Source: Balneolaceae bacterium
GTDB lineage: Bacteria; Bacteroidota; Rhodothermia; Balneolales; Balneolaceae
Length of the DNA: 64,000 bases
Direction: 5' to 3'
Assembly: GCA_034521495.1 (NCBI GenBank)
Contig: JAXHMK010000010.1
Span: 186,001 to 250,000 of the forward strand
Shown here: positions 2 to 13,179 of the stretch, one piece after another
How positions within the stretch are numbered: the stretch's first letter is position 1
Layout: every line of letters begins with the position of its first letter
The notes under the pieces: generated by a model
What the model saw: only the letters and a program-made list of their open reading frames with translations
Database searches by the model: none
Told to the model about the DNA's origin: nothing
Program-made: the position numbers and the translations under genes

Positions 2-2452
2 GAGGAATACAGAGGAAAAAATGCATTCGAAATTTTCCATGAAGATGATCATGAAAGGCTCAAAAGAGCACTTCGATCGATTCAGCCCTATGAAAGCACA
101 GATTTGGCACCATTCAGGTATAAAACCGATGAGGGAGAGTGGCGATGGATGGAATCAACAATTACAAATTTGACAGAGAATCCAGCCGTAAATGGATTTG
201 TTACCAATTCCAGGGATGTAACGGATCGTATTGAACAGGAAAGAAAACTGCGTGATATTGTAGAACACAGCACGAACATGTTCTACCAGCATGATACAGA
301 GGGCGTTTTAACATATGTAAGTCCGCAATCCAGTGATTTTTTGGGATATTCACCAGAGGAGGCGATTCGGAAATGGACAGATTTTATTACTGATCATCCG
401 CTCAATAAAAAAGGGGAGCAGATAACTCAGCGGGCTATCGATACAGGCGAAATTCAGGAACCTTACGAATTACAATTAAAAACAGCTGATGGGCGGATTA
501 TATGGGTTGAAGTAAATGAAGCGCCATTGATTAAAGAGGGAAAAGTTCAGGGTATTGTTGGATCACTGACGGATATTACGGAAAGAAAAGCAGCTGAAGA
601 ACTGATTAAAAAGTCAAATGAGAAGTTGAACACGGCCCAGGAGATCGCCAAACTTGGATATTTTGAATTTTATTTTGAATCGGATGAGATCTACTGGTCT
701 GATCAGTCGTACAAGATTTGGGAGTACGACCCCAATGAGATTGAACTCACACTGGATCTTATTTTTGAGAGAATGCATCCTGAGGACAGGGACTATTTTA
801 TTAAGCAGCATGAACAAACCGTGAAAACCGGTAAAACATTAAATCTGGAACACCGAATTCAATTTCCGGATGGAAGAATAAAATGGGTTCGGGTGATTGG
901 TGATTTGAAGAGGTCTTCGGAAGGAAAACCTGTTGCAGTAGAAGGAACCGCACAGGATATTACAGATAAAAAATTAGCCGATCTGGAACTCGAAGAGGCA
1001 TACAATGAGATAGAAACCATTCTTGAAAGTATCGGTGAGGCATTTTTTGCTGTGGATAAAAACTGGACTGTGACCTATTGGAATAATGTAGCCGAAGAGG
1101 TATTGCATAGACCCCGAAAAGAAATTCTCGGAAAAAATCTTTGGGATGTATATGAAGATGCCACGGAACTGGAATTTTATACCCAATATCATAAGGCTGT
1201 AAACGAAAAAATTACCGTACACTTTGAGGAATTTTATCCAACTCTTGGAAAATGGTTTGAAGTAAGTGCATATCCTTCCGAAAATGGATTGTCTGTCTTT
1301 TTCAGAGATATCACAGAGCAAAAGGAAAACCGTGAAAAAATAGAGCGTATTAATGAACGGTTTGAAAAAGTTACGGAAGCCACCAATGATGCGATCTGGG
1401 ATTTTGATGTTATAGATGATAATCTCTATTGGGGCCGGGGATTTGAGACACTTTTTGGATATGACCTGGATGAAATTTCACCGGATATGGAATTTCTCAT
1501 TAGCCTGATTCATCCGGAAGATCGTGAGCGAATTTCCCATAAAATTCAGAATTATATGAAGCCGGGTGGAGAACAGGACTGGTTTGAAGAATATCGATTT
1601 CAAAAAGCCGATGGAACCTATGCCTATGTGATGGACCGCGCCGTATTTATACGTAATAAAAACGGTAAGGTCACTCGTGTTGTAGGTGCCATGACCGACC
1701 TGACCCGTCAAAAAGAGATTGAAGAATCGCTCAAGCAACTCAATATTGAGTTGGAACAACGTGCTGAGGAACTGACTGCCTCGAATGCCGAATTGGAGCA
1801 GTTCGCCTATGTAGCTTCCCACGATCTCCAGGAGCCGCTGCGAATGGTTACCAGTTTCCTCACTCAGCTTGATAAAAAGTACAGTGGACAGCTCGATGAA
1901 AAAGCTAATCAATATATCCATTACGCCGTAGATGGTGCGCAGAGAATGAGGCAGATTATTTTAGATCTGCTGAACTATTCGCGTTTGAACAGAGATCAGC
2001 AGAAGCACGTAGAAACCGATTTGAATGAGATTTTTCAGGAGGTTCAGGCATTAGCACGTTCACGAATTAAAGAAACCGGGGCAACTATTGAATCAGACAG
2101 CTTACCGACCCTCGAAGTAAATCCCGTTGCAATCAAACAGGTACTGCAGAATTTACTGAGCAATGCGCTTAAGTACCAAGAGGGTGATACTACACCCCAA
2201 ATCAATGTGCGTGCGGAGGAGCTGGACACCCACTGGAAGTTTAGTTTTGAGGATAATGGTATTGGTATCAATCCCGAGTTTAAGGATACCATTTTCCAGA
2301 TTTTTCAGCGTCTGCATACCCGGGATCAATATTCGGGAACCGGAATAGGCCTTGCCATCGCCAAAAAGATCATTGAACGGCACGGCGGCGAAATTTGGGT
2401 AGAATCGGAAGAGGGAGAGGGGAGTACCTTCTATTTTACGATTGAGAAATAG
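2..2452 (+). CDS. multi-PAS sensor histidine kinase (5' end outside window)
   Basis: The frame is open from base 2, so the protein begins upstream; the first in-window start codon (TTG at 104) lies inside a PAS fold and is not the true start. About 816 residues are visible. Order: end of one PAS/PAC (to about residue 80), PAS at about 84-192, 210-323, 337-440 and 453-571, then HisKA (592-663) with phosphoacceptor His near residue 607 in ASHDLQEP, and HATPase_c (708-815) with N box NLLSNALKY, G1 DNGIGI and G2 GTGIGLAI. No membrane segment is visible, so a soluble multi-input sensor is likely. The kinase core is closely similar to those at 2798-4153 and 7684-8886. Signal and partner are unknown; no receiver is fused to it. 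Confidence 0.93.
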   Translation, partial: EEYRGKNAFEIFHEDDHERLKRALRSIQPYESTDLAPFRYKTDEGEWRWMESTITNLTENPAVNGFVTNSRDVTDRIEQERKLRDIVEHSTNMFYQHDTEGVLTYVSPQSSDFLGYSPEEAIRKWTDFITDHPLNKKGEQITQRAIDTGEIQEPYELQLKTADGRIIWVEVNEAPLIKEGKVQGIVGSLTDITERKAAEELIKKSNEKLNTAQEIAKLGYFEFYFESDEIYWSDQSYKIWEYDPNEIELTLDLIFERMHPEDRDYFIKQHEQTVKTGKTLNLEHRIQFPDGRIKWVRVIGDLKRSSEGKPVAVEGTAQDITDKKLADLELEEAYNEIETILESIGEAFFAVDKNWTVTYWNNVAEEVLHRPRKEILGKNLWDVYEDATELEFYTQYHKAVNEKITVHFEEFYPTLGKWFEVSAYPSENGLSVFFRDITEQKENREKIERINERFEKVTEATNDAIWDFDVIDDNLYWGRGFETLFGYDLDEISPDMEFLISLIHPEDRERISHKIQNYMKPGGEQDWFEEYRFQKADGTYAYVMDRAVFIRNKNGKVTRVVGAMTDLTRQKEIEESLKQLNIELEQRAEELTASNAELEQFAYVASHDLQEPLRMVTSFLTQLDKKYSGQLDEKANQYIHYAVDGAQRMRQIILDLLNYSRLNRDQQKHVETDLNEIFQEVQALARSRIKETGATIESDSLPTLEVNPVAIKQVLQNLLSNALKYQEGDTTPQINVRAEELDTHWKFSFEDNGIGINPEFKDTIFQIFQRLHTRDQYSGTGIGLAIAKKIIERHGGEIWVESEEGEGSTFYFTIEK

Positions 2453-2467
2453 TTAGGGAAAGATCCG

Positions 2468-2575
2468 AGGCTGTCCAAACAAGGATGTCATTCTGAACTT
2501 GATTCAGAATCTCCTGTCATTAATAAAGGCTGGAGATACCGGATCGGGGTCCGGTATGACAAAATTTGATTTTAT
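2468..2575. repeat. MITE-like repeat, family A, partial copy
   Basis: This begins with AGGCTGTCCAAACAAGGATGTC and carries the same palindromic core (ATTCTGAACTTGATTCAGAAT) and the same GGATCGGGGTCCGGTATGAC end as the full element at 4226-4364, but the right terminal inverted repeat is missing. It starts six to fifteen bases after the kinase stop, inside what looks like half of the AGATCCG hairpin seen after the other two kinases. Confidence 0.7.
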
Positions 2576-2582
2576 ATGCTTT

Positions 2583-2735
2583 TACTTGTTCCGAAGGTCT
2601 CCTTCGGAACACTGTTTTTGGAAGCTCTGCTTCTGATAAAATGGTTGGATTGCTGTTATATTGTTATGACGAGTGAATGGAAGCGGAGCTTCAGACCTGG
2701 CGTACCGAAGGAGGACCTTCGGTACGAGTAAAAGA
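2583..2735. repeat. palindromic intergenic repeat, family F
   Basis: The left half reads TTGTTCCGAAGGTCTCCTTCGGAAC then GAAGCTCTGCTTC; the right half reads GAAGCGGAGCTTC then GTACCGAAGGAGGACCTTCGGTAC and GAGTAAAAG. The halves are inverted copies of each other and each also contains its own short hairpin. Related pieces occur near 4740-4772, 34958-35041 and 38560-38612. No reading frame is plausible here; it occupies most of the gap between the first two kinases. Confidence 0.6.
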
Positions 2736-2797
2736 AATCCCCTTAGAAGGGGGACTTTTAAAACTCTGAGAGCGAAAAAAAATTACGATTTACATCT

Positions 2798-4153
2798 ATG
2801 AACCTATTTAAAAGAATATGGAATTCTTATCGGAGAACTATTATCCGAAACTGCACTGACTTTCAAGCTCCCAGTACGTCATTGGAGTACTGGCAGAACC
2901 GGTTGTTTTCGGCTTCGGTGATATTTTTAATTCCATTAAGTGTTGTTGCCGTTGTGCCGGGAATTTATATGGCATATATCACGGATCTTAAGGGCCTGAT
3001 TGCTGTAGATTTTCTTGCCATATTTACAATACTTGGAATTGCATTCCTTCCGGGTTTAACCGTGTATCATCGAAAATTGATCTTCAATGGAGTTTTGTAT
3101 GTAACATCGGTGACTCTTCTGCTATACCTGGGCACTGTTGGCCCCGGACTGCTCTATTTGCTTGGCATTACCATTTTTATTGTATTAAGCCTGGATAAAA
3201 AATTCGGATACCTGGCCGTTGGCCTAAATACATTGATCTGTATAGTGGTTGGATTTATGCTATATAATGAAATCGGAAATTTTTATATCATGGCAGAGTA
3301 CGGACTGGGAAGCTGGATCGCCGTCTCTTCAAACCTGGTAATACTAAGCGCAATAACAGTTTTACTCATTCCCATTCTTTTTGAGGGACTTCAGAATGCA
3401 CTTGTGGAGGAGAATAAGCTCAAATCTGAACTGGAGATTGAACAGAAAATACTGGGAGAGACCTTAGAAGAGCTAAAATCTAAAAACGATGAATTAGAGA
3501 GATTTGCCTATACAATTTCGCATGACCTGAAGGAGCCGCTGCGGATGGTTCGAAGTTTTATGGGACTGCTCGATAAGAAGTATGCACCTCAACTCGATGA
3601 AAAAGCAAAGAGTTATATTTACTATGCAGTAGACGGCAGCCGCAGGATGACTGAATCTATCGATGATCTTCTGGAGTACTCGCGGATTGGCCGGATGTAT
3701 ACAAATGCGGAGAAGCTGGACCTTAACGAAGTGGTGGAGGATGTTAAAAAGATCTTTTCGGGAGAGCTTGACCGTATGAATGCTGAAATTAATACAGCCA
3801 AACTCCCGGTGATAGAGGGCGTCCCCATTACCCTCAAGATGTTATTTCAAAATTTGATCTCCAATGCACTTAAGTACCAGCCGGAAGGAGGAAAACCCAA
3901 TATTGAAATCGGCTATAAAGAACTCGATTCTCATTGGCAGTTTTTTGTGAAAGACAATGGAATTGGAATTGAGCAGGAGTATAAAGAGGAGATTTTTAGA
4001 ATATTTCGCCGGCTGCATACCAATGACCAATATTCCGGAACCGGGATGGGGCTGGCCATCTGCAAGAAAATTGTAGAACAACACGGTGGTGAAATTTGGG
4101 TCGAATCAGAAGAAGAGGTTGGAAGTACGTTCTTTTTTACGGTTGAGAAATAG
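2798..4153 (+). CDS. membrane sensor histidine kinase
   Basis: A 451-residue kinase with an integral-membrane input region. About six hydrophobic segments lie between residues 38 and 197, followed by a short coiled coil (200-235). HisKA has its phosphoacceptor His at 242 (SHDLKEPLRM); HATPase_c has N352/N356 (NLISNALKY), G1 DNGIGIE at 386-392 and G2 GTGMGLAI. There is no periplasmic loop of any size, so the sensor probably works within the membrane, like MASE or 5TM-type inputs. The kinase core is about as close to those of the neighbouring kinases as recent paralogs would be. No fused receiver is seen; the free regulator at 9272 is one possible partner (inference). Confidence 0.92.
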   Translation: MNLFKRIWNSYRRTIIRNCTDFQAPSTSLEYWQNRLFSASVIFLIPLSVVAVVPGIYMAYITDLKGLIAVDFLAIFTILGIAFLPGLTVYHRKLIFNGVLYVTSVTLLLYLGTVGPGLLYLLGITIFIVLSLDKKFGYLAVGLNTLICIVVGFMLYNEIGNFYIMAEYGLGSWIAVSSNLVILSAITVLLIPILFEGLQNALVEENKLKSELEIEQKILGETLEELKSKNDELERFAYTISHDLKEPLRMVRSFMGLLDKKYAPQLDEKAKSYIYYAVDGSRRMTESIDDLLEYSRIGRMYTNAEKLDLNEVVEDVKKIFSGELDRMNAEINTAKLPVIEGVPITLKMLFQNLISNALKYQPEGGKPNIEIGYKELDSHWQFFVKDNGIGIEQEYKEEIFRIFRRLHTNDQYSGTGMGLAICKKIVEQHGGEIWVESEEEVGSTFFFTVEK

Positions 4154-4160
4154 ATTGGTA

Positions 4161-4195
4161 AGATCCGCGAAGTCTTTGAAAGACTTCGCGGATCT
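4161..4195. repeat. perfect 15-bp inverted repeat, family E hairpin
   Basis: The arms AGATCCGCGAAGTCT and AGACTTCGCGGATCT are separated by a 5-base loop and begin eight bases after the kinase stop. The same hairpin sits at the same distance after the kinase stop at 8886, and the same arms bound a 193-bp element at 23766-23958. A T-run does not follow, so it is a repetitive palindrome that may also end transcription rather than a standard intrinsic terminator. Confidence 0.75.
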
Positions 4196-4225
4196 GGTAA
4201 ACTGAGAACCTGATATATCTTACTT

Positions 4226-4364
4226 GAGGCTGTCCAAAAAGGATGTCATTCTGAACTTGATTCAGAATCTCCAGACTTTAACTATGTATGGAGATACCGG
4301 ATCGGGGTCCGGTATGACAAAATGAGAATATTTGATTTCTCTCACATCCCTTTTGGACAGCCTC
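4226..4364. mobile_element. MITE-like element, family A, with 21-bp terminal inverted repeats
   Basis: The left end GAGGCTGTCCAAAAAGGATG and the right end CATCCCTTTTGGACAGCCTC are inverted copies with one mismatch over 21 bp. Inside lie a palindrome ATTCTGAACTTGATTCAGAAT and a second GGAGATACCGGATC-GGGGTCCGGTATGAC block. It is 139 bp long and non-coding. The length and terminal repeats fit a miniature inverted-repeat element moved in trans; no transposase of a matching family was recognised in the window. Confidence 0.65.
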
Positions 4365-4510
4365 ACTGCCATTGGAAGCTCTGCTTCTGGTAAAACGTTT
4401 ACAGAGTATGGAGTACCGATATGCGATTGGAGATATACGGTCTCAGATATACGATCTGAACTTTTTTTAACGTGAGTTCGAGATAAAGATGAATCAACTG
4501 ATGCCCCCGC

Positions 4511-4679
4511 CTGGCGCAAGTGTTAAGCGAAGCGTCACTTGTGCCACCTTTTCTTTGTAAAAAGCTTGGCACAAGTGACATCCTCGGCTTACTGATTGTA
4601 GAAAGAATTTTCCAGCAAAAGATTATCTAACTTTATTCCAAGTTATACTTTGAAATACCGGATTTAACACTTGCGCCAG
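4511..4679. mobile_element. nested inverted-repeat element, family I
   Basis: The outer arms CTGGCGCAAGTGTTAA (4511-4526) and TTAACACTTGCGCCAG (4664-4679) are perfect inverted repeats. Inner arms GTCACTTGTGCCA (4534-4546) and TGGCACAAGTGAC (4566-4578) are also perfect. The whole 169-bp unit is non-coding and looks like a MITE or a large structured repeat. The rest of the gap to 4958 holds another short hairpin (GGGCTTTAGCC/GGCTAAAGCCC near 4865-4902) and no gene. Confidence 0.6.
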
Positions 4680-4958
4680 TTTGGGGCTTCGATGCCGGTG
4701 TACGTGTCCTTAAGGGGGCAATGGGATGAACTCTTGTGCTTCAGAACCAAGGAGGACCTCCGGTACGAGTAAAAGACCAAATGGAAGATATTTATTACCG
4801 TCTGCTTTTCACGCCGGTAGGCAGATGCCTTTCGCAAGCTGACGGTATTGGAAGGCAGGAAAAAAGGGCTTTAGCCACATTAAGTTTAGGGCTAAAGCCC
4901 TACTAAGGTATCAGATTTTCTGCCGTTGTTTTGTGGTTTATGGAAGGATATTGTTATT

Positions 4959-6056
4959 TCAGACCATTAATCGTTTTGCCCTCACCCCTTCGCCTCCTCT
5001 CACCACGGGAGAGGGCTCTTCCAGCCGCTTGCAGGCTTGCTGATAGGTCGAGGCAGATACCTGGGGTTTCATCTGCCCCACCACCATTGCCGTTTTTAAC
5101 ATCCTGCGGAGTGATCCCAAAAATTCATTGCCTTGACCGGGATACTGATCATTGGCCTGACTGATGGCTTTCAGATGGTGTGCATAACATTTTTGCTGCA
5201 GTGGGTTCACATCATCATAAATATTCAGACAATCACTGATCAAGACTCCTTTATAATCGGTGCCGATCACCTGGTGAAGTTCCTCACGCCCGCGACTTCC
5301 GGCCACTTTATACAGCGTTTGATCGGGATTTGTAAACACCCATAACCAGCTTTTGGGGCTGCCCATATACCAGGAAGTCTCATCGCAGTGCAGATAATCG
5401 GACCCGCGGGCTTGTTCAAGCAACTGCTGATAGGTCTGCTGGCATTTCTGACTCATCCGCCAACACGCATAATGCCATCCGGCCGGGCTGGCCGACAGCC
5501 CACAAACCTGCTTCATGACCGCCTGAGTCTTACGTTTGCTCAATCCATACCCATAGTTGAGTTTCAAAGCAATGGCTTTGGCACGCGGACCCAATTGCAC
5601 TTTCGCCGCTCCCTGCCCATCGGAGGTTTTCAGCGGATGGGTCGATTGAACAGACCCACACTGCGGGCACTGTCCACGATAGGTGGTCAGCTCATATCGG
5701 CGAGGGGTAATCGGTGGAATCTCTTCGATAATTTGTTCGATGGGGTGTACATTCCTTACAGGCCCTCCACAGCTCGGACACCCTTCTAATGGAACCTCAA
5801 TCTGCTCGTCAATACAAGTTGGAGGCTGGCGCCATGTCCCTTCGTGGCCCGCCTTGCGACCCGGTTTGGTCGGTTTGGATACTTTTTTATCCGCTTTCCG
5901 CCGAAAAGGGGCTGCCTGACGATGCCCGCTGCGCTGCAACTGCTCGATCTGTTCGGTAAGGGTGGTGATTTGCTTGTTGAGCTGGTCCACCTGCTCAGTC
6001 AGTTGACTGATCCGCTCGGCCTTTGGGGAGAGGGCGGAAACAGCGGGCTGAGCCAA
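4959..6056 (-). pseudogene. IS66-family transposase, 3' truncated
   Basis: The N-terminal coiled coil (about residues 13-45) is followed by an IS66 zinc-finger region with two CxxC pairs (CPSCGG near 94 and CPQC near 133) and the front of the DDE catalytic domain. The first Asp is in HCDETSW and the second in ISDCLNIYD. IS66 TnpC proteins are usually about 500 residues; here similarity stops near residue 346 and the last 20 residues are read from a dispersed CCCTCACCCCTTCGCC-type palindrome (about 4978-5030). The segment that should carry the third acidic residue is gone, so the protein should be inactive. No TnpA/TnpB partners or intact terminal repeats were found. Confidence 0.85.
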
Positions 6057-6166
6057 GAGAATAGCTTTTTACAATTGCCAGTTCGCTAAACACGTACGAA
6101 GCCAACGGTCATAGATATTATCGATACCTTTGGAAGATTAAAAAATTAAAACCCAATTAGATTAAC

Positions 6167-6466
6167 ATGCCATTTACAGCAATCAGTAAGTTTGAAGTTC
6201 GAAATAATATGGAGGATGAGGTTCGTGAAGCGTTCAAGAACCGTCCTCATTTAGTGGATGATGCCCCGGGTTTTATCGGCCTGCAAGTGCTTTCACCCAA
6301 AGAAAATGATGCAGAATTCTGGCTGATTACCCATTGGGATTCTGAAGAACATTTTCACGATTGGCACGATAATCACAGGAGCGAAGCGCACCAGGGAATT
6401 CCAAAGGGGTTAAAATTGGTTAAAAGAAGTTGGGAACTTACTTTTTATGACCTGATCACTACTTAG
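6167..6466 (+). CDS. antibiotic biosynthesis monooxygenase (ABM) family protein, HmoB/IsdG-like
   Basis: A 99-residue single ABM ferredoxin-like fold. Visible features are the start MPFTAISKFEVRNNMED, a central PGFIGLQVLSP segment, the strand EFWLITHWDSEEHFHDWH and the helix with H-IPKGLKL, which together match heme-degrading monooxygenases and related small oxidases. Family members cleave heme or oxidise quinone-like compounds without a cofactor. Which substrate is used cannot be told from sequence. The gene lies 157 bp upstream of the cobalamin sensor and kinase in the same direction. Its stop codon falls on the edge of a palindromic repeat, so co-transcription with the sensor is uncertain. 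Confidence 0.8.
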   Translation: MPFTAISKFEVRNNMEDEVREAFKNRPHLVDDAPGFIGLQVLSPKENDAEFWLITHWDSEEHFHDWHDNHRSEAHQGIPKGLKLVKRSWELTFYDLITT

Positions 6467-6586
6467 TGTCACTAAGAAAACGACAATCTCTGCGTTCCGC
6501 TTGTTCAAAAAATGCTCATGTACACGTAGTACACTGCGCTTTTTTGACCTTCGCGCGCCTTGATCTTGACGTTTTCTTAGGACACT
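6465..6586. mobile_element. 122-bp inverted-repeat element
   Basis: The left end AGTGTCACTAAGAAAACG (6465-6482) and right end CGTTTTCTTAGGACACT (6570-6586) are inverted repeats with one indel. The centre holds GTACACGTAGTAC and a CGCGCG patch. The element is non-coding and fills the space between the ABM gene and the cobalamin sensor. It resembles other MITE-like units in this window but its terminal sequence is different. Confidence 0.55.
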
Positions 6587-6623
6587 ATGAGTTTTCATAC
6601 AAACACTACTTAAATTGGCTGAT

Positions 6624-7682
6624 ATGAATTCAGATCTTAATTTCGAAATTTTACAGCTCGAATCGAACCGGGAAAAACTGGCGGAGAGGATTACGGATCT
6701 GCACTTTAAGAATAATCCTGACCTGGAAAAACGATACGGTGAAAAAGGCCGGGATTACTGCTACGAAGATGCACTCTATCATCTCAATTACCTGATTGAA
6801 TCACTGCGGATTGAAAGTCCCGATATGTTTAATCACTACCTGCAGTGGTCCTGGCATATGTTAAAGGCCCGCGAAATTCCTAAGAATGATCTGTTGCACA
6901 ACCTGGATTACATGGAAGAAGCCATCAGGCAGGAATTGATGAATGCCGATATGGAAATTTCTATTGAATACATTCGAAAAGGCAAACATTACCTGGAGAA
7001 CCTGAAGCCGGTCGAAAAACATTATCTGAAGACAGAAGAGCCGTTGTATGAAGAAGCCAAAGAATATCTGAACCTGTTATTAGACAGTAAGCGGCAACAA
7101 GCCGGACAATTAATTGATGAACTGGTGAAACAGGATATCCCTGTAAAAGATATTTATGAACACATTTTTCAAACCACACAATACGAGATTGGTGCTCTCT
7201 GGCAGCGAAATGAAATTACCGTAGCCCACGAACATTACTGCACAGCTGCCACTCAGTTAATCATGTCGCGTTTATACCCTCTGATCTTCTCGACCCCTAA
7301 AAAGGGGCAAAGGATGGTAGCCTGTTCGGTTTCCAGCGAACTGCACGAGATTGGCATACGCATGGTTGCTGATTTCTTTGAAATGGACGGATGGGATACC
7401 TATTACATGGGCAGCAATATGCCGGACAATCACCTCATTCAATCCATAAAAGAACACCGGGCGCAGCTTTTGGCCATATCGGTTACTCTGCCCATCCACA
7501 TTCAAAAAGTAACATCGCTGATAGAAAAAATTCGGAATATGCCGGATATGGATGATCTGAAAATTATGGCAGGCGGTTACCCGTTTTCCATAATCCCCGA
7601 TCTTCAAAACCGGATGGGTGCAGATGCCACCGCCGTGAATGCACGAAAAGCGATTGAAACCGCCAATCAGATTGTAAACTGA
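6624..7682 (+). CDS. CarH-like cobalamin-binding sensor without DNA-binding domain
   Basis: 352 residues from the ATG at 6624; a TTG three codons upstream is less likely. Residues 1-140 are an uncharacterised helical N-terminal domain (motif KRYGEKGRDYCYEDALYHL). Residues about 145-225 form the four-helix B12 cap, with W193-x9-E203-H204, the W-x9-EH signature of CarH/LitR photoreceptors. Residues about 230-352 are a B12-binding Rossmann domain with E239-L-H241-E-I-G244, the ExHxxG form of the motif, making H241 the likely lower cobalt ligand. The MerR helix-turn-helix of CarH is absent, and the residue after W193 is Gln, where from memory CarH has the His that binds cobalt after photolysis. 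The stop is one base from the start of the histidine kinase, so this sensor probably feeds that kinase. Light, B12 or redox could be the signal. Confidence 0.88.
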   Translation: MNSDLNFEILQLESNREKLAERITDLHFKNNPDLEKRYGEKGRDYCYEDALYHLNYLIESLRIESPDMFNHYLQWSWHMLKAREIPKNDLLHNLDYMEEAIRQELMNADMEISIEYIRKGKHYLENLKPVEKHYLKTEEPLYEEAKEYLNLLLDSKRQQAGQLIDELVKQDIPVKDIYEHIFQTTQYEIGALWQRNEITVAHEHYCTAATQLIMSRLYPLIFSTPKKGQRMVACSVSSELHEIGIRMVADFFEMDGWDTYYMGSNMPDNHLIQSIKEHRAQLLAISVTLPIHIQKVTSLIEKIRNMPDMDDLKIMAGGYPFSIIPDLQNRMGADATAVNARKAIETANQIVN

Positions 7683-7683
7683 G

Positions 7684-8886
7684 ATGACCGAACTGACTGA
7701 ACATATCAAAAACGGGATTTACCTGAATTGTAATAAAGAGGGGAGAATCACGGATGTATTGTTTGATGATCTCGATTTGGTAGAAAAAGAAAAACTACCG
7801 TTACCATTTGCAGATATTGTTTCGAAAGAAAGCCTGGGAAAAGCCTCCGATTTCTGGGAGGATATTCGAAACCGCGACATTGTATTTGATTACGAATTGT
7901 ATATCAAAACCGGCAATGAACCCATTCCTCTGAAATTCACGGCTGCGTGGTTCCGCAATAAGATCTGGGTAATTGGTGCCATCCGTAATGAGATGATGGA
8001 AAAGATGCTGGATGAGATGATGCTCATCAACAACGAACAGCAGAATCTGATTCGCCAATCTGAGAAGAAACTCAGTGACCTTGAAAAACAGGGAAAACGC
8101 CCGCCGATAGATGCATACGAAGAAATTTCGCAGGTAAATAACGAATTGATCAATGCCCAGCGAAAGCTCATCAAACAGAATGAAGAGATTTTAAGACTGA
8201 ATAATGAGCTGAAGGAAACCAATCAGGAGTTAGAACAATTCGCATATTCGTTATCGCACGATTTAAAAGAGCCTCTCAGGATGATACGATCTTTTATGAG
8301 TCTTCTGGAGAAAAATTATGGGCCCGAGTTGGATGAAAGAGCCAAAGAGTATATCCATTATGCTGCAGATGGTGCGGAAAGAATGAATGGATACATTTCT
8401 GATCTGCTTGAATATTCCCGAATTGGGCGCAAAAATACTACGGTTGAAAAGATCAGCATCCGGAATGTGCTGGATAAAGTTATCAGGTTACATGCATCCC
8501 TTATTGATGAATCAAATGCAGATGTTGAAACAGGTGAAATGCCGACGATAAATTGTCAGCGAGTGCGGATTGAGCAACTGTTTAATAACCTGTTGGGAAA
8601 TGCTCTCAAATACAGGAAACCGAATGTTGATCCAGTTATAAAAATTGAGGCCAGGGAAGAAGATGACGCCTGGTTATTTTCCGTATCAGATAACGGAAAG
8701 GGAATTCCGGAAAATCTGCATTCAGAGATATTCAACTTATTCAGCCGCGGTGAACCCGATAATACTTCCGGATCAGGTATGGGCCTGGCCATTTGTAAAA
8801 AAATTGTAGAACAGCATGATGGGAAAATTTGGGTAGAATCTGAGGAAGGAAAAGGAAGTACGTTCTTTTTTACGATTGGGAAATAG
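7684..8886 (+). CDS. histidine kinase coupled to the cobalamin sensor
   Basis: A 400-residue soluble kinase starting one base after the sensor stop, so the two genes are almost certainly co-transcribed. Residues 1-102 form a PAS-like fold (IVFDYELYIKTG, then LKFTAAWFRNKIWVIGAIRNE) without a full PAC end. A long coiled coil spans about 103-185. HisKA has phosphoacceptor H192 (SHDLKEPLRM); HATPase_c has the N box NNLLGNALKY (301-310), G1 DNGKGIP (336-342) and G2 GSGMGLAI. There is no membrane segment and no receiver. The coiled coil could transmit a change in the B12 protein to the kinase (inference). The partner may be the receiver at 9272. Confidence 0.93.
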   Translation: MTELTEHIKNGIYLNCNKEGRITDVLFDDLDLVEKEKLPLPFADIVSKESLGKASDFWEDIRNRDIVFDYELYIKTGNEPIPLKFTAAWFRNKIWVIGAIRNEMMEKMLDEMMLINNEQQNLIRQSEKKLSDLEKQGKRPPIDAYEEISQVNNELINAQRKLIKQNEEILRLNNELKETNQELEQFAYSLSHDLKEPLRMIRSFMSLLEKNYGPELDERAKEYIHYAADGAERMNGYISDLLEYSRIGRKNTTVEKISIRNVLDKVIRLHASLIDESNADVETGEMPTINCQRVRIEQLFNNLLGNALKYRKPNVDPVIKIEAREEDDAWLFSVSDNGKGIPENLHSEIFNLFSRGEPDNTSGSGMGLAICKKIVEQHDGKIWVESEEGKGSTFFFTIGK

Positions 8887-9271: not shown

Positions 9272-9712
9272 ATGAATCCGGAAGAAATACAGATCCTGCT
9301 CGTTGAAGATAACGAAGGAGACATCGTACTGACAAAAGAAGCCTTTGAAGAGGGTAAAATTAAAAACAATATTTCTGTAGTACGAGACGGATGGGAAGCG
9401 ATCCAGTTTCTTGAGCGGAAAGAAGGGTATGAAGGTGTTCAGTTACCGGACCTGGTGCTGCTGGATATCAACCTGCCAAAATTGAATGGTCATAAAGTGC
9501 TCAAACATATCAAAAACCACCCGGATCTGCGTTATATCCCCGTCATAATGCTCACTACATCTTCAGACGAAACGGATGTCATAAAATCGTACGATAATCA
9601 CTCAAATTGCTACATTACCAAGCCTGTTGATATTAATAATTTTCTAAAAGTGATCTCTTCTATTGAGGATTTCTGGATCTCGATTGTTCAGCTTCCTCCA
9701 CATAAAATGTAA
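9272..9712 (+). CDS. single-domain response regulator, Rcp1-like
   Basis: A 146-residue stand-alone receiver. The acidic pair is E12/D13, the phosphoacceptor is D65 in LVLLDINLPK, the switch Thr is T95/T96 and the conserved Lys is K117 in YITKPVD. The length and the long alpha4-beta5 region (KSYDNHSNCYITKP) match Rcp1-type regulators that serve phytochrome-like kinases. With no output domain it should work as a phosphate relay or by protein contact. It sits 11 bases before the large hybrid kinase in the same direction, so the two form an operon. It could accept phosphate from any of the four kinases around it; specificity is unknown. Confidence 0.93.
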   Translation: MNPEEIQILLVEDNEGDIVLTKEAFEEGKIKNNISVVRDGWEAIQFLERKEGYEGVQLPDLVLLDINLPKLNGHKVLKHIKNHPDLRYIPVIMLTTSSDETDVIKSYDNHSNCYITKPVDINNFLKVISSIEDFWISIVQLPPHKM

Positions 9713-9723
9713 CGAGTATTCCA

Positions 9724-12700
9724 ATGACAGCAATGCAAAAAAATCTCCGGATTCTGGTAATTGAAGATAATCCAGGGGATTTTGTGCTTATTCAGGAGTA
9801 TCTGACTGAGGGCATGGAGAGTCCTGAAATTGATCGTGCAGATACATTTTCCGAAGCCAAAAAGAAACTCACCAACTCCACACAGTACGATTCTATTTTG
9901 CTGGACCTTTCTCTGCCCGATGTGAGTGGTGAAGAACTTGTAAAAAAAATTATATCGCTGGCCGGGAATACTCCGGTTGTGGTTCTGACGGGGTTTGAAA
10001 ACCAGGAATTCGGGCTGAAAACACTTTCCTGGGGAGTCTCGGATTATCTTCTGAAAGATGAGAGTAACTCTTTTGTGCTTACCAAGGTTGTAACCTACAG
10101 TATTGAGAGAAACCGAATTCAGAAGACCGTAAAAACATCTGAAAAAAAATACCGCGATTTCTTCAATTTGAGTCCGATTCCCATGTGGGTATATGAACTG
10201 GAAACCCTCCGGTTCTTAGATGTTAACCAGGCAGCCATCGATCAATATGGGTATTCAAGAGAAGAATTTTTGAATATGACCATAGAGGAGATTCGGCCGA
10301 AGGAAGAGATCAGTACTCTTTGGGAAATCATAGAATACACAAAAGAAAATGATCTGTCTGTTTGGGAGGGAGAAGTGAAACATCAAAAAAAAGACAAAAC
10401 AGTCTTCGATGTTCTCATTAAAAGTATTTTAATTGATCATAATGGCAGAGAAGGTGAATTAATCGTTGCCGAAGATATAACCGAACAAAAGTATTACAAT
10501 CATCTTGAAAAGCTGGAGCGCGATATTCTGGAAAAGAATTCGCTGAATGAGTTGAATATAAAAGAGCTGGTTGAGGAATTTGTTTTAGGAATCGAGAATC
10601 TTCATCCCGGAACCCGATGCTCAGTTACAAAAATTGTCAATAACAAGCTGAACGAATTTGCATCTCCGTCACTTCCGGGTGAATTTTTAAAGATGCTGAA
10701 TGGTGTGGAGATTGGTCCGAATGCCGGATCTTGTGGTACGGCCGCATTTCGGAAAGAGCTGGTAATATCGGAAAATATCTTTAAAGACCCATTATGGAAG
10801 AACTATAGATCTCTTGGAGAGAAGTTTAACTTTAGTGCATGTTGGTCTCAACCGGTGTTTAATAATAAGGGAGATGTTGTAGCTACGTTTGCTGTTTATT
10901 ATGAACGTCCAAATAAGCCGTCTGACCTCGAAATAAATACCGTAGAGCGGGCAGCCCACATATTACGTATTCTGTTTGAAGGTCATGAAAAAGAGATAGC
11001 CGAAGAGAAGCTGGCACTCAGCGAGAGCAAATACAAAGCGATTGTACAGGATGGAGCAGAACTGATTGCTATTTTAGATGAGGAGGGAGTGTATAATTAT
11101 GTATCACCAAATACACTCGAAGTGATGGGGATTCCTCCTGATGAATTTATAGGTGAAAATGTATTTCCATATCTGCATGATGATGACAGGGAACGGATTG
11201 AAAAATTACTTGGAACGTTAGATAAAGGTGAAAGAAAACAGATTAAACCTTATCGGTTTAAATTAAAGGATTACAAAGAGTTTTGGATTGAAACAACGGT
11301 AACCAATTTGTTAGACAATCCTTCGATTAATGGATACCTGGCAAATTCGAGGAATGTTACGGAACAGATTGAGAGGGAACACAAATTGAAAGAGCTCTCC
11401 CTGGTTGCTTCAAAGTCAACGGATATTGTTATTATTACAGATGAAGAAGGATATATAACCTGGGTAAATAAAGCCTTTGAAGAACTGACAGAATATATGC
11501 TTGATGAGGCTGTTGGAAGGAAACCGGGGACTTTGCTTCAGGGGCCTGATTCCGATCCCGAAATGGCAGAAAAACTTTCTGAAGCGGTTCATAATCACCA
11601 ATCCATTGACACCACAATTCTGAATTATTCTAAAAGTGGCGATGAATACTGGATCAATATGAGCATTGACCCCATTTTTGATGACGAGGGAAATTGTACT
11701 CATTTCATTGCTATTGAAAGAGATGTAACGAAAGAGATTGAAAAAGAGAAAGAATTGAAAGAGAGCCTGGAACGGTACGATATCGTATCGAAAGCTACCA
11801 GCGATACGATTTGGGATCTGAACCTGGAAAACGACCAGATGGTGTACAACAGCAATATTTACACCATGTTTGGTTATAAAGAACAAGAGGTAAAAAATAT
11901 TGGAAGTTGGTGGAGAGATAAAATTCACCCGGAAGACCTTGAAAAAGTAGAACGTGCACTGGCAAGTGTATTGAAAAAAGGTACAGAACGTTTCCAGATG
12001 GAATACCGCTTTAAAACAGCGGATGACACGTATAAATATATTCTTGACCGCGCCTTTGCTCTTAAAGATGAAGAGGGAAAGCCTGTGCGAATCATCGGGG
12101 CCATGCAGGATATTACCCGGCAGCGCGAGGAGGAAGAGAGGCTTAAACTTTATGAATCAGTGGTAACCAATACACAAGAGGCTGTCGTAATCATGGAAGC
12201 GGAACCTTCTGAACTGCCCGGCAGAAAAATACTATATGTAAATGAAGCTTTTACGGAAATGACGGGGTATGAGAAGGAGGAGGTTTTAGGAAAAACTCCC
12301 AGTTTTCTGAATGGTCCGAAAACCGATCAATCATTGAGAGAGAAACTGCGCCATTCAATGAACAAATATGAAACCGTTGAAGTTGAGTTCATTAATTATA
12401 AGAAGAGCGGAGAAGAGTTCTGGATAAACATCTCGATGGTTCCAGTAACCAATAATAAAGGAAATTACACGCATTGGGTATCAATCGGGAGAGACGTGAC
12501 AGCACGGCGAAATTACGAAGAGGAGATTCAAACCTCACTTGCTGAGAAAGAGATGCTTCTTTCAGAAATTCACCATCGGGTGAAGAATAATTTAGCGGTT
12601 ATTTCGGGTATGATGCAGTTGCAGGCGTTTGAATCGACTAACCCGGAATTACAAGAGAAGCTGTTTGATAGTGTCTTCAGAATTAAAACAATGGCAACCG

Positions 12701-13179
12701 TTCATGAGCTGCTCTATCAAACAAATAGTTTTTCAAATATTGATTTTACCAAAGCACTTACATCATTAGCCAAAAACGTATCAGATACTCTTGAATCGGA
12801 TTCCAATGTGGAGATGAAAATCAACAGTATGCCGATTCGACTGAATATTAACCAGGCTATACCGGTTTCATTGATTGTAAATGAAGTGATTACCAATGCT
12901 TATAAGCATGCATTTGATAAGCAGAAAACAGGTTTGATTGAAATTGATCTGCAGGAAAAAGATGACCAGGTTGAATTGCATATTTCAGATAACGGGGTTG
13001 GCTTGCCAGAACATTTCGATAAAAATGATCTGTCATCTATGGGGCTTAAGCTCATTAATGTACTATCTGAACAAGTTGGTGCAAGCTTTGACTACAATGG
13101 CCTTGAAAGGGGAACTCAGTTTTCGATCTTTTTTGAAAAGGCTGAGATAAAAGGAACCGGTAATGTTCATATGGTTTAA
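9724..13179 (+). CDS. hybrid sensor kinase: REC-PAS-GAF-PAS4-HisKA_2-HATPase
   Basis: 1151 residues. The N-terminal receiver (about 8-125) has D61 in ILLDLSLPD and the Lys in YLLKDES. PAS 1 is about 140-255. GAF is about 275-425 (GSCGTAAFRKELVI, then ACWSQPVFNN). Four more PAS folds follow at about 435-560, 565-680, 690-810 and 815-935. HisKA_2 has EIHHRVKNNLAV with His at 950-951, and the HATPase carries VNEVITNAYKHAF, DNGVGLP and SSMGLKLI. Two of the PAS folds resemble LOV domains (GRKPGTLLQGP and GKTPSFLNGP) but lack the flavin-binding Cys. An N-terminal receiver before a HisKA_2 kinase suggests it is the end point of a relay that could be fed by the upstream kinases. Confidence 0.93.
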   Translation: MTAMQKNLRILVIEDNPGDFVLIQEYLTEGMESPEIDRADTFSEAKKKLTNSTQYDSILLDLSLPDVSGEELVKKIISLAGNTPVVVLTGFENQEFGLKTLSWGVSDYLLKDESNSFVLTKVVTYSIERNRIQKTVKTSEKKYRDFFNLSPIPMWVYELETLRFLDVNQAAIDQYGYSREEFLNMTIEEIRPKEEISTLWEIIEYTKENDLSVWEGEVKHQKKDKTVFDVLIKSILIDHNGREGELIVAEDITEQKYYNHLEKLERDILEKNSLNELNIKELVEEFVLGIENLHPGTRCSVTKIVNNKLNEFASPSLPGEFLKMLNGVEIGPNAGSCGTAAFRKELVISENIFKDPLWKNYRSLGEKFNFSACWSQPVFNNKGDVVATFAVYYERPNKPSDLEINTVERAAHILRILFEGHEKEIAEEKLALSESKYKAIVQDGAELIAILDEEGVYNYVSPNTLEVMGIPPDEFIGENVFPYLHDDDRERIEKLLGTLDKGERKQIKPYRFKLKDYKEFWIETTVTNLLDNPSINGYLANSRNVTEQIEREHKLKELSLVASKSTDIVIITDEEGYITWVNKAFEELTEYMLDEAVGRKPGTLLQGPDSDPEMAEKLSEAVHNHQSIDTTILNYSKSGDEYWINMSIDPIFDDEGNCTHFIAIERDVTKEIEKEKELKESLERYDIVSKATSDTIWDLNLENDQMVYNSNIYTMFGYKEQEVKNIGSWWRDKIHPEDLEKVERALASVLKKGTERFQMEYRFKTADDTYKYILDRAFALKDEEGKPVRIIGAMQDITRQREEEERLKLYESVVTNTQEAVVIMEAEPSELPGRKILYVNEAFTEMTGYEKEEVLGKTPSFLNGPKTDQSLREKLRHSMNKYETVEVEFINYKKSGEEFWINISMVPVTNNKGNYTHWVSIGRDVTARRNYEEEIQTSLAEKEMLLSEIHHRVKNNLAVISGMMQLQAFESTNPELQEKLFDSVFRIKTMATVHELLYQTNSFSNIDFTKALTSLAKNVSDTLESDSNVEMKINSMPIRLNINQAIPVSLIVNEVITNAYKHAFDKQKTGLIEIDLQEKDDQVELHISDNGVGLPEHFDKNDLSSMGLKLINVLSEQVGASFDYNGLERGTQFSIFFEKAEIKGTGNVHMV

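Follow-up and report, generated by a model that had tools for sequence, protein, structure and literature searches.

A photocobilin-type sensor with a dedicated histidine kinase and a linked IsdG-type gene in a Balneolaceae genome

Introduction

In phytochrome-type two-component sensors, light perceived through a bilin is relayed to a histidine kinase; for the photoreceptors that combine B12 with bilin, the output demonstrated to date is, to our knowledge, a fused diguanylate cyclase. A family of such proteins, the photoglobin-B12 proteins, was described by Schneider et al. in 2022, as cited in PMC10979010 and PMC10151467. Studies of the photocobilin SasPcob demonstrated that adenosylcobalamin and biliverdin lie in contact within the protein, that either pigment can drive cleavage of the Co-C bond, and that the adenosyl pocket rearranges (PMC10979010). 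The bilin, which is flipped relative to its orientation in phycobiliproteins, is contacted by Asp270 and Trp296, the latter touching both ring D and the corrin, and regulation of the photocobilin’s partner occurs through protein contact (PMC10979010). The light state of SasPcob is water- or hydroxide-ligated (PMC11796333, PMC10979010).

The DNA analysed here (‘the window’) is a stretch of 64,000 nucleotides from the genome of a Balneolaceae bacterium. An original prediction drew attention to a sensor gene and a histidine kinase gene within it, and described the former as a CarH-type B12 photosensor. The analysis reported below indicates that the sensor belongs to the photocobilin family, that its kinase partner is a dedicated one, and that the unit extends further upstream than was first described.

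Organization of the locus

The unit starts before the sensor, at a gene for a 99-residue IsdG/MhuD-type protein (6167-6466, forward strand; Pfam ABM, 5e-15), and continues on the same strand with the 352-residue sensor (6624-7682), in which a bilin-type globin precedes a B12 domain, and the 400-residue histidine kinase (7684-8886). None of the three reading frames is disrupted. A MITE-like interspersed repeat of 135 bp (6466-6600) separates the ABM gene from the sensor gene; it has a terminal inverted repeat at 6472-6486/6566-6580 and approximately ten near-full copies elsewhere in the genome that are 76-92% identical; the gap between the two genes is correspondingly 148 bp here, versus 2-22 bp in most close relatives.

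A putative transposase gene, of IS66 type by appearance, occupies 4959-6056 on the minus strand, some 110 bp upstream of the ABM gene, and the corresponding stretch in two relatives (L030 and L031) holds kinase genes. The flanks of the module (104-4153 and 9272-13179) form a dense signalling cluster of multi-PAS kinases, a MASE11 kinase, a single receiver and a hybrid kinase, which is partly retained in L028 and L030. The receiver, which is Rcp1-like, and the hybrid kinase at 9272-13179 had been put forward as a possible output of the sensor; among the relatives read, both were found again only in the close relative L028, where they lie past another kinase gene, and they were set aside as a conserved output.

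The B12-binding part of the sensor

The sensor contains the motifs W193-x9-E203-H204, E239-L-H241-E-I-G244 and G263-x3-P267. Pfam places a B12-binding_2 four-helix domain at residues 146-217 (1.4e-14; 7059-7274, with W193 at 7200-7202, then Q194, and E203-H204 at 7230-7235), and a B12-binding Rossmann domain at residues 232-340 (5.4e-18; 7317-7643, with the putative lower-ligand His241 at 7344-7346). A MerR or other DNA-binding domain was not found in the sensor by Pfam. When 90 relatives were compared, W193 was conserved in all 90, E203 and H241 in 89 each and H204 in 88, and the search patterns that gathered those relatives included H241 and neither W193 nor EH; the B12 motifs of the sensor are not chance matches. 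To this extent the original prediction, of a CarH-type photosensor domain freed of its DNA-binding domain and carrying these signatures, was borne out. In the published four-part signature (GxxW, EH, GxxH, GxxxP), Ser238 replaces the Gly of GxxH.

Gln194 occupies the position of CarH His132, and the second cobalt-binding His is thus absent. The suggestion that a stable bis-His form might not arise with this substitution agrees with our reading, in which a bis-His light state is not expected. The residue is not the anomaly it had been taken for, because SasPcob likewise has Gln at that position (PMC11796333); the 90 relatives include 68 with Gln there and 8 with His. CarH also proved not to be the closest described system. 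The solved structures nearest to the whole sensor were those of photocobilins (8J2W/8J2X and 8J2Y), ahead of CarH, and a search with the full-length sensor model (pLDDT 93.9) matched its B12 part to photocobilin 8j2w with a Z-score of 26.4, compared with approximately 20 for CarH. NCBIfam models for CarH and for methyltransferase corrinoid proteins matched the B12 part far below their cut-offs, and were not used for naming it.

The N-terminal globin

The N-terminal domain (residues 1-125; 6624-6998) had appeared to be unnamed, since a single-sequence Pfam search with it gives only a weak Phycobilisome match (0.044). Profile and fold searches ruled out that it is novel, and together identify it, at the level of sequence and model, as a phycobiliprotein-type bilin-binding globin. 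A profile built from 61 such N-terminal domains retrieved the bilin domain of SasPcob (1.2e-7) and phycocyanin CpcA (4e-7), followed by allophycocyanins, and 48 of the 61 domains matched PF00502 (Phycobilisome) at E-values up to 1, the best being 2.5e-11. In the structure search with the whole sensor, the N-terminal region weakly matched the C-terminal bilin domain of each photocobilin. The list of matches to the full-length model was filled by B12 domains, and the globin was therefore modelled and searched separately: the resulting AlphaFold model (pLDDT 93.0) matched smURFP (Z 16.9, 2.0 A over 123 residues), residues 225-346 of SasPcob (Z 16.8, 2.4 A over 122 residues) and allophycocyanins (Z approximately 16). 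The Foldseek E-values for the model were only about 2e-3, and the assignment is for that reason based on profile, fold and residues jointly.

In the profile alignment, for which the SasPcob residue numbering was anchored on Trp61, Asp49 of the sensor corresponds to SasPcob Asp270 and Trp75 (6846-6848) to Trp296. Trp75 is retained in 89 of 90 relatives, Asp49 in 78 of the 88 scored and Cys46 in 40 of the 87 scored. Cys46 stands at the position of the phycobiliprotein Cys that binds bilin covalently, and the tetrapeptide C46-Y-E-D49 (6759-6770) aligns with the Cys84-x-x-Asp87 bilin site; it has the Cys and Asp of the phycobiliprotein CXRD motif with Glu in place of Arg, and the relatives display CxQD, CxED and SxRD at the same place. 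Because a bilin-type globin precedes the B12 domain, the sensor is a photocobilin (photoglobin-B12 protein) with its globin first, and belongs, that order included, to the family already described.

It might still be argued, as was first proposed, that the protein is a CarH-like photosensor that uses B12 only and has an unrelated N-terminal domain. The B12 motifs and the missing MerR domain are as such a protein would have them, AbDPcob shows that the globin of a photocobilin can be largely bilin-free (PMC10979010), and a second pair in the same genome (L002/L026) has His in place of the bilin Asp, as AbPcob does. The domain in the window, however, resembles bilin globins in profile and in fold alike, with Cys46, Asp49 and Trp75 all present, and we regard a B12-only sensor here as decidedly improbable. 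The second sensor-kinase pair (L026:8165-10470; G000 contig C9) has a sensor 38% identical to that of the window, in which Asp49 is replaced by His and Cys46 by Asn, and it is accompanied by no ABM gene; it is possibly a B12-only version of the system.

The kinase partner

The kinase gene begins one base after the sensor gene ends, and its product contains HisKA (residues 183-248), with the phospho-acceptor His192 (8257-8259), and HATPase_c (residues 293-398), as identified by Pfam. By hydropathy it has no membrane segment (maximum 19-residue mean 0.64), in agreement with the soluble histidine kinase that had been predicted. The pairing that the prediction had postulated does recur. In 86 of 90 relatives the sensor is followed directly by a kinase-type reading frame of the same strand, and in 77 of those 86 the two are within 40 bp of each other; HATPase_c is found in 79 of the 86 downstream frames, HisKA in 74 and GGDEF in 4, and His192 is almost invariant across the paired kinases. 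In one further relative (L080) sensor and kinase are joined in a single chain of 866 residues, and two of the other three that have no downstream kinase (L044 and L045) do not carry the full B12 signature.

The paired kinases share an N-terminal domain of approximately 105 residues, closed by an NNE coiled-coil motif that is present in 82 of 86; in the window the domain and the opening of the coiled coil, with NNE at residues 116-118, span 7684-8037. Sequence searches of Pfam and the PDB returned nothing for the domain. When 117 genomes of the order were searched with its profile, it turned up 15 times, on every occasion directly after a sensor that had already been located. The kinase pairing is therefore real and dedicated, and we infer that the N-terminal domain serves as a docking domain for the sensor.

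Several additional arrangements were noted among the relatives. The verrucomicrobial L080 encodes two divergent sensor-kinase fusions (1455-5300 and 5983-8583) of 1281 and 866 residues, the longer of which, as read from its sequence, ends with kinase, receiver, receiver and HPt domains. In Adhaeribacter (L067, L068 and L069) the gene that follows the sensor encodes a protein of 164-173 residues that matches the N-terminal part of the kinase and has no catalytic part; these short proteins could be free docking proteins. The kinase N-terminal domain looks PAS-like, by eye only.

Distribution, and the question of light

Relatives of the sensor-kinase pair are distributed over many phyla, from Lokiarchaeota to Paenibacillus, and many of them come from anaerobic or sediment groups (Lokiarchaeota, Anaerolineae and Syntrophaceae) in which both light and O2-dependent synthesis of bilin are doubtful. 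Three Lokiarchaeota metagenome-assembled genomes (L111, L113 and L099, putative bins) carry full sensor-kinase pairs with intact adenosyl-pocket residues; light sensing in Asgard archaeal hosts would be unexpected.

Because homologues occur in mostly anaerobic lineages, the main rival to a light sensor is a module that senses adenosylcobalamin, or the alkylation or redox state of cobalamin, with heme or some other tetrapyrrole bound by the globin as co-signal and cofactor status reported by the kinase. Such a role would account for intact W, EH and H motifs in lineages (Lokiarchaeota, Anaerolineae, Caloramator and Syntrophaceae) that mostly live without oxygen and frequently in the dark, and it accords with the absence of canonical heme oxygenase from most sensor genomes. 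Against it, the W-x9-EH motif is where the adenosyl group is gated and photolysis takes place in CarH and photocobilins, and it is kept in 88-90 of 90 relatives, the bilin-pocket Asp and Trp are retained even in the anaerobic groups, and different heme-opening enzymes recur beside the sensor gene. A cofactor-status sensor is consequently judged unlikely, although it deserves to be kept in view as a reading of the module; a light-responsive photocobilin is preferred. A DNA-photolyase neighbour was considered as a recurring marker of light and rejected, as it was found only in L094.

The IsdG-type gene and the supply of bilin

The closest PDB matches of the ABM protein are MhuD (2e-13 to 2e-12) and HmoB, with IsdI and IsdG weaker, and its matches to NCBIfam heme-degrading models fall below their cut-offs. 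Its gene is the sole PF03992 match in the genome. Of the 86 relatives scored, 33 have the same gene as the immediate upstream neighbour of the sensor, and they represent ten phyla when the window’s own order is counted. A survey of 117 genomes of the order found this ABM type ten times: eight complete copies beside a sensor, one remnant and one at a contig end. The remnant, in G065, is internally deleted and adjoins a sensor. At L034:5975-6148, an ABM gene with an in-frame internal deletion of approximately 40 residues was observed directly upstream of an intact sensor.

The presence of the ABM gene goes with that of Cys46, being found with 24 of 39 Cys-bearing sensors and 9 of 49 others (Fisher p 5e-5). 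A likelihood-ratio test for correlated evolution of the two gave p 2e-5 on one midpoint-rooted quick tree, whose weakness that value inherits, and an independent-pairs test restricted to well-supported branches had too few of them.

In MhuD numbering, Ser7, Arg26, Trp57, Trp66 and His75 are present in all 33 proteins. The Asn-Trp-His catalytic triad of the IsdG family is thus incomplete, with Trp66 and His75 kept and Asn7 replaced by Ser in 33 of 33. Asn7 is a member of that triad, and the N7A substitution reduces the activity of MhuD (PMC6018153); the gene might accordingly accompany a photocobilin-type sensor without being its source of bilin, the Ser7 protein being catalytically dead and acting as a heme or bilin chaperone or as a second sensory subunit. 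Genetic linkage demands a functional tie and not enzymatic activity, and would be satisfied by either role. On the other side, the axial His75, the ruffling Trp66, Arg26 and Trp57 are kept in 33 of 33, the gene is the only one of its kind in a genome without canonical heme oxygenase, and canonical heme-opening enzymes hold the neighbouring position in other lineages. A non-enzymatic ABM protein has an appreciable chance of being correct, somewhat short of even; an ABM protein that makes or delivers bilin is the reading favoured here.

Neither a canonical heme oxygenase nor a phytochrome (PHY domain) was found in the window’s genome, and the idea that it encodes either was rejected; 23 other genomes of the order likewise yielded no canonical heme oxygenase. 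A cobalamin adenosyltransferase is encoded in the genome. Of 50 other sensor genomes, 41 are without canonical heme oxygenase, and many of these are without the ABM gene as well. Heme oxygenase is present in 2 of 23 genomes with ABM and 7 of 27 without it, which gives a trend only, and the notion that ABM replaces heme oxygenase across the 50 genomes was not retained.

Other heme-opening enzymes were found in the vicinity of sensor genes. Four relatives (L082, L089, L090 and L096) have a divergent canonical heme oxygenase (PF01126) beside the sensor. In two Bacteroidota (L106:2708-3991 and L120:4469-5761), a ChuW/HutW-like radical SAM protein, below the equivalog cut-off and of a family that we take to open heme anaerobically, is encoded directly upstream of the sensor; the radical SAM gene upstream of the sensor in L121 was rejected as ChuW-like, being HemW. 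That three unrelated kinds of heme-opening enzyme occur beside one sensor family is the best hint so far of a linear tetrapyrrole in the globin, and of a tie between the ABM protein and it; it is no proof that the Ser7 form is active.

A proposed mechanism

We propose that the locus encodes a self-contained module, in which a photocobilin-type sensor with adenosylcobalamin and bilin passes light to its dedicated kinase and the ABM protein makes or delivers the bilin; this reading of the whole is probably correct. What the analysis itself shows is the architecture, the residue conservation, the fold and the genetic linkage of the parts. By analogy with characterised photocobilins, the C-terminal domain of the sensor would bind adenosylcobalamin, with His241 as its lower ligand and with Trp193 and Glu203-His204 holding the adenosyl group, and in the N-terminal globin Asp49 and Trp75 would surround a linear tetrapyrrole, which may be attached covalently to Cys46. 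Absorption of light by either pigment would break the Co-C bond, upon which the four-helix region would shift and no bis-His state would be formed. The altered sensor dimer may then act, by protein contact, on the kinase’s private N-terminal domain and its NNE coiled coil, and from there on HisKA, so that autophosphorylation of the kinase would change. The upstream IsdG-type protein may bind heme via His75 and Trp66 and make or deliver the bilin; it is linkage and homology that suggest this supply, and on which any view of the sign of the kinase’s regulation would draw.

Several observations weigh against this scheme: (i) the ABM protein is without the catalytic Asn; (ii) Cys46 is Thr in SasPcob, where moreover the bilin is flipped relative to phycobiliproteins; (iii) a repeat splits the operon; (iv) a transposase-like gene lies upstream of the operon in the window’s genome; (v) many relatives belong to the anaerobic or sediment groups named above; (vi) most of the other sensor genomes have no canonical heme oxygenase, and many of those have no ABM gene either; and (vii) the link between Cys46 and the ABM gene is not secured when the comparison is confined to well-supported branches. 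A more specific version is rather speculative and, as a whole, improbable: that the IsdG proteins of the Ser7 clade convert heme to a bilin other than biliverdin (such as a mycobilin-like formyl-oxo-bilin) which is bound at Cys46 of the sensor, that heme oxygenase or an anaerobic ChuW-type radical SAM enzyme substitutes for them elsewhere, and that the kinase docks to such sensors through a new, private N-terminal domain.

If the proposed module is real, a dedicated kinase partner with an unnamed domain would make B12/bilin receptors a widespread two-component input, from Lokiarchaeota to Paenibacillus, and the recurrence of the module across many phyla would suggest that light-sensing pigments are made and used in an unusual manner. 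The linked Ser7 IsdG-type gene offers a directly testable source of bilin for organisms without heme oxygenase. It may also point to a physiological role for IsdG-type bilins, what becomes of these in bacteria having been described as largely unknown (PMC6018153). The literature searched contained no account of the strict kinase partnership, the private kinase domain or the invariant-Ser7 IsdG-type gene, part of which may be covered by the neighbourhood section of the 2022 photoglobin paper.

Comparison with known systems

The photocobilins SasPcob (8J2W/8J2X) and AbDPcob (8J2Y) likewise combine a phycobiliprotein-like globin with a CarH-type B12 domain (PMC10979010), and they have W-x9-EH, E/DxH and the equivalents of Asp270 and Trp296 in common with the window’s sensor, as well as, in SasPcob, the Gln at the His132 position. 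Regulation of a partner through protein contact, established for photocobilins, would by analogy apply here too. SasPcob has its B12 domain first and its globin last, and the sensor in the window is reversed; its membership in the family stands nonetheless, because the B12 domain sits at either end among photocobilins (PMC10979010). The systems differ further in the Cys that the sensor has at the covalent bilin site, where SasPcob has Thr, in an output that is a separate and dedicated histidine kinase, and in the presence of an IsdG-type gene in the operon.

With CarH/LitR (5C8D-5C8F) the sensor shares the four-helix and Rossmann B12 domain, the adenosyl-pocket residues and the lower His, and differs from them in having no MerR domain, Gln for the second cobalt His, an additional globin and a kinase as its output. 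The ABM protein shares its fold, axial His75 and Trp66 with the IsdG family (MhuD, IsdG/I, HmoB and HmuQ), MhuD being the closest solved structure, and is set apart by an invariant Ser for the catalytic Asn7, by scores below the NCBIfam equivalog cut-offs, and by its linkage to a photoreceptor in place of heme uptake.

In the BBAG-2 clusters (PMC10151467), genes for a bilin globin and a B12-binding protein are likewise linked to one for a heme-opening enzyme, but there globin and B12 protein are not joined in one chain, and heme opening falls to a canonical heme oxygenase, in both of which respects the window differs. Compared with phytochrome systems, finally, the window’s predicted pigments are a pair, bilin and cobalamin, and its sensor and kinase are separate proteins.
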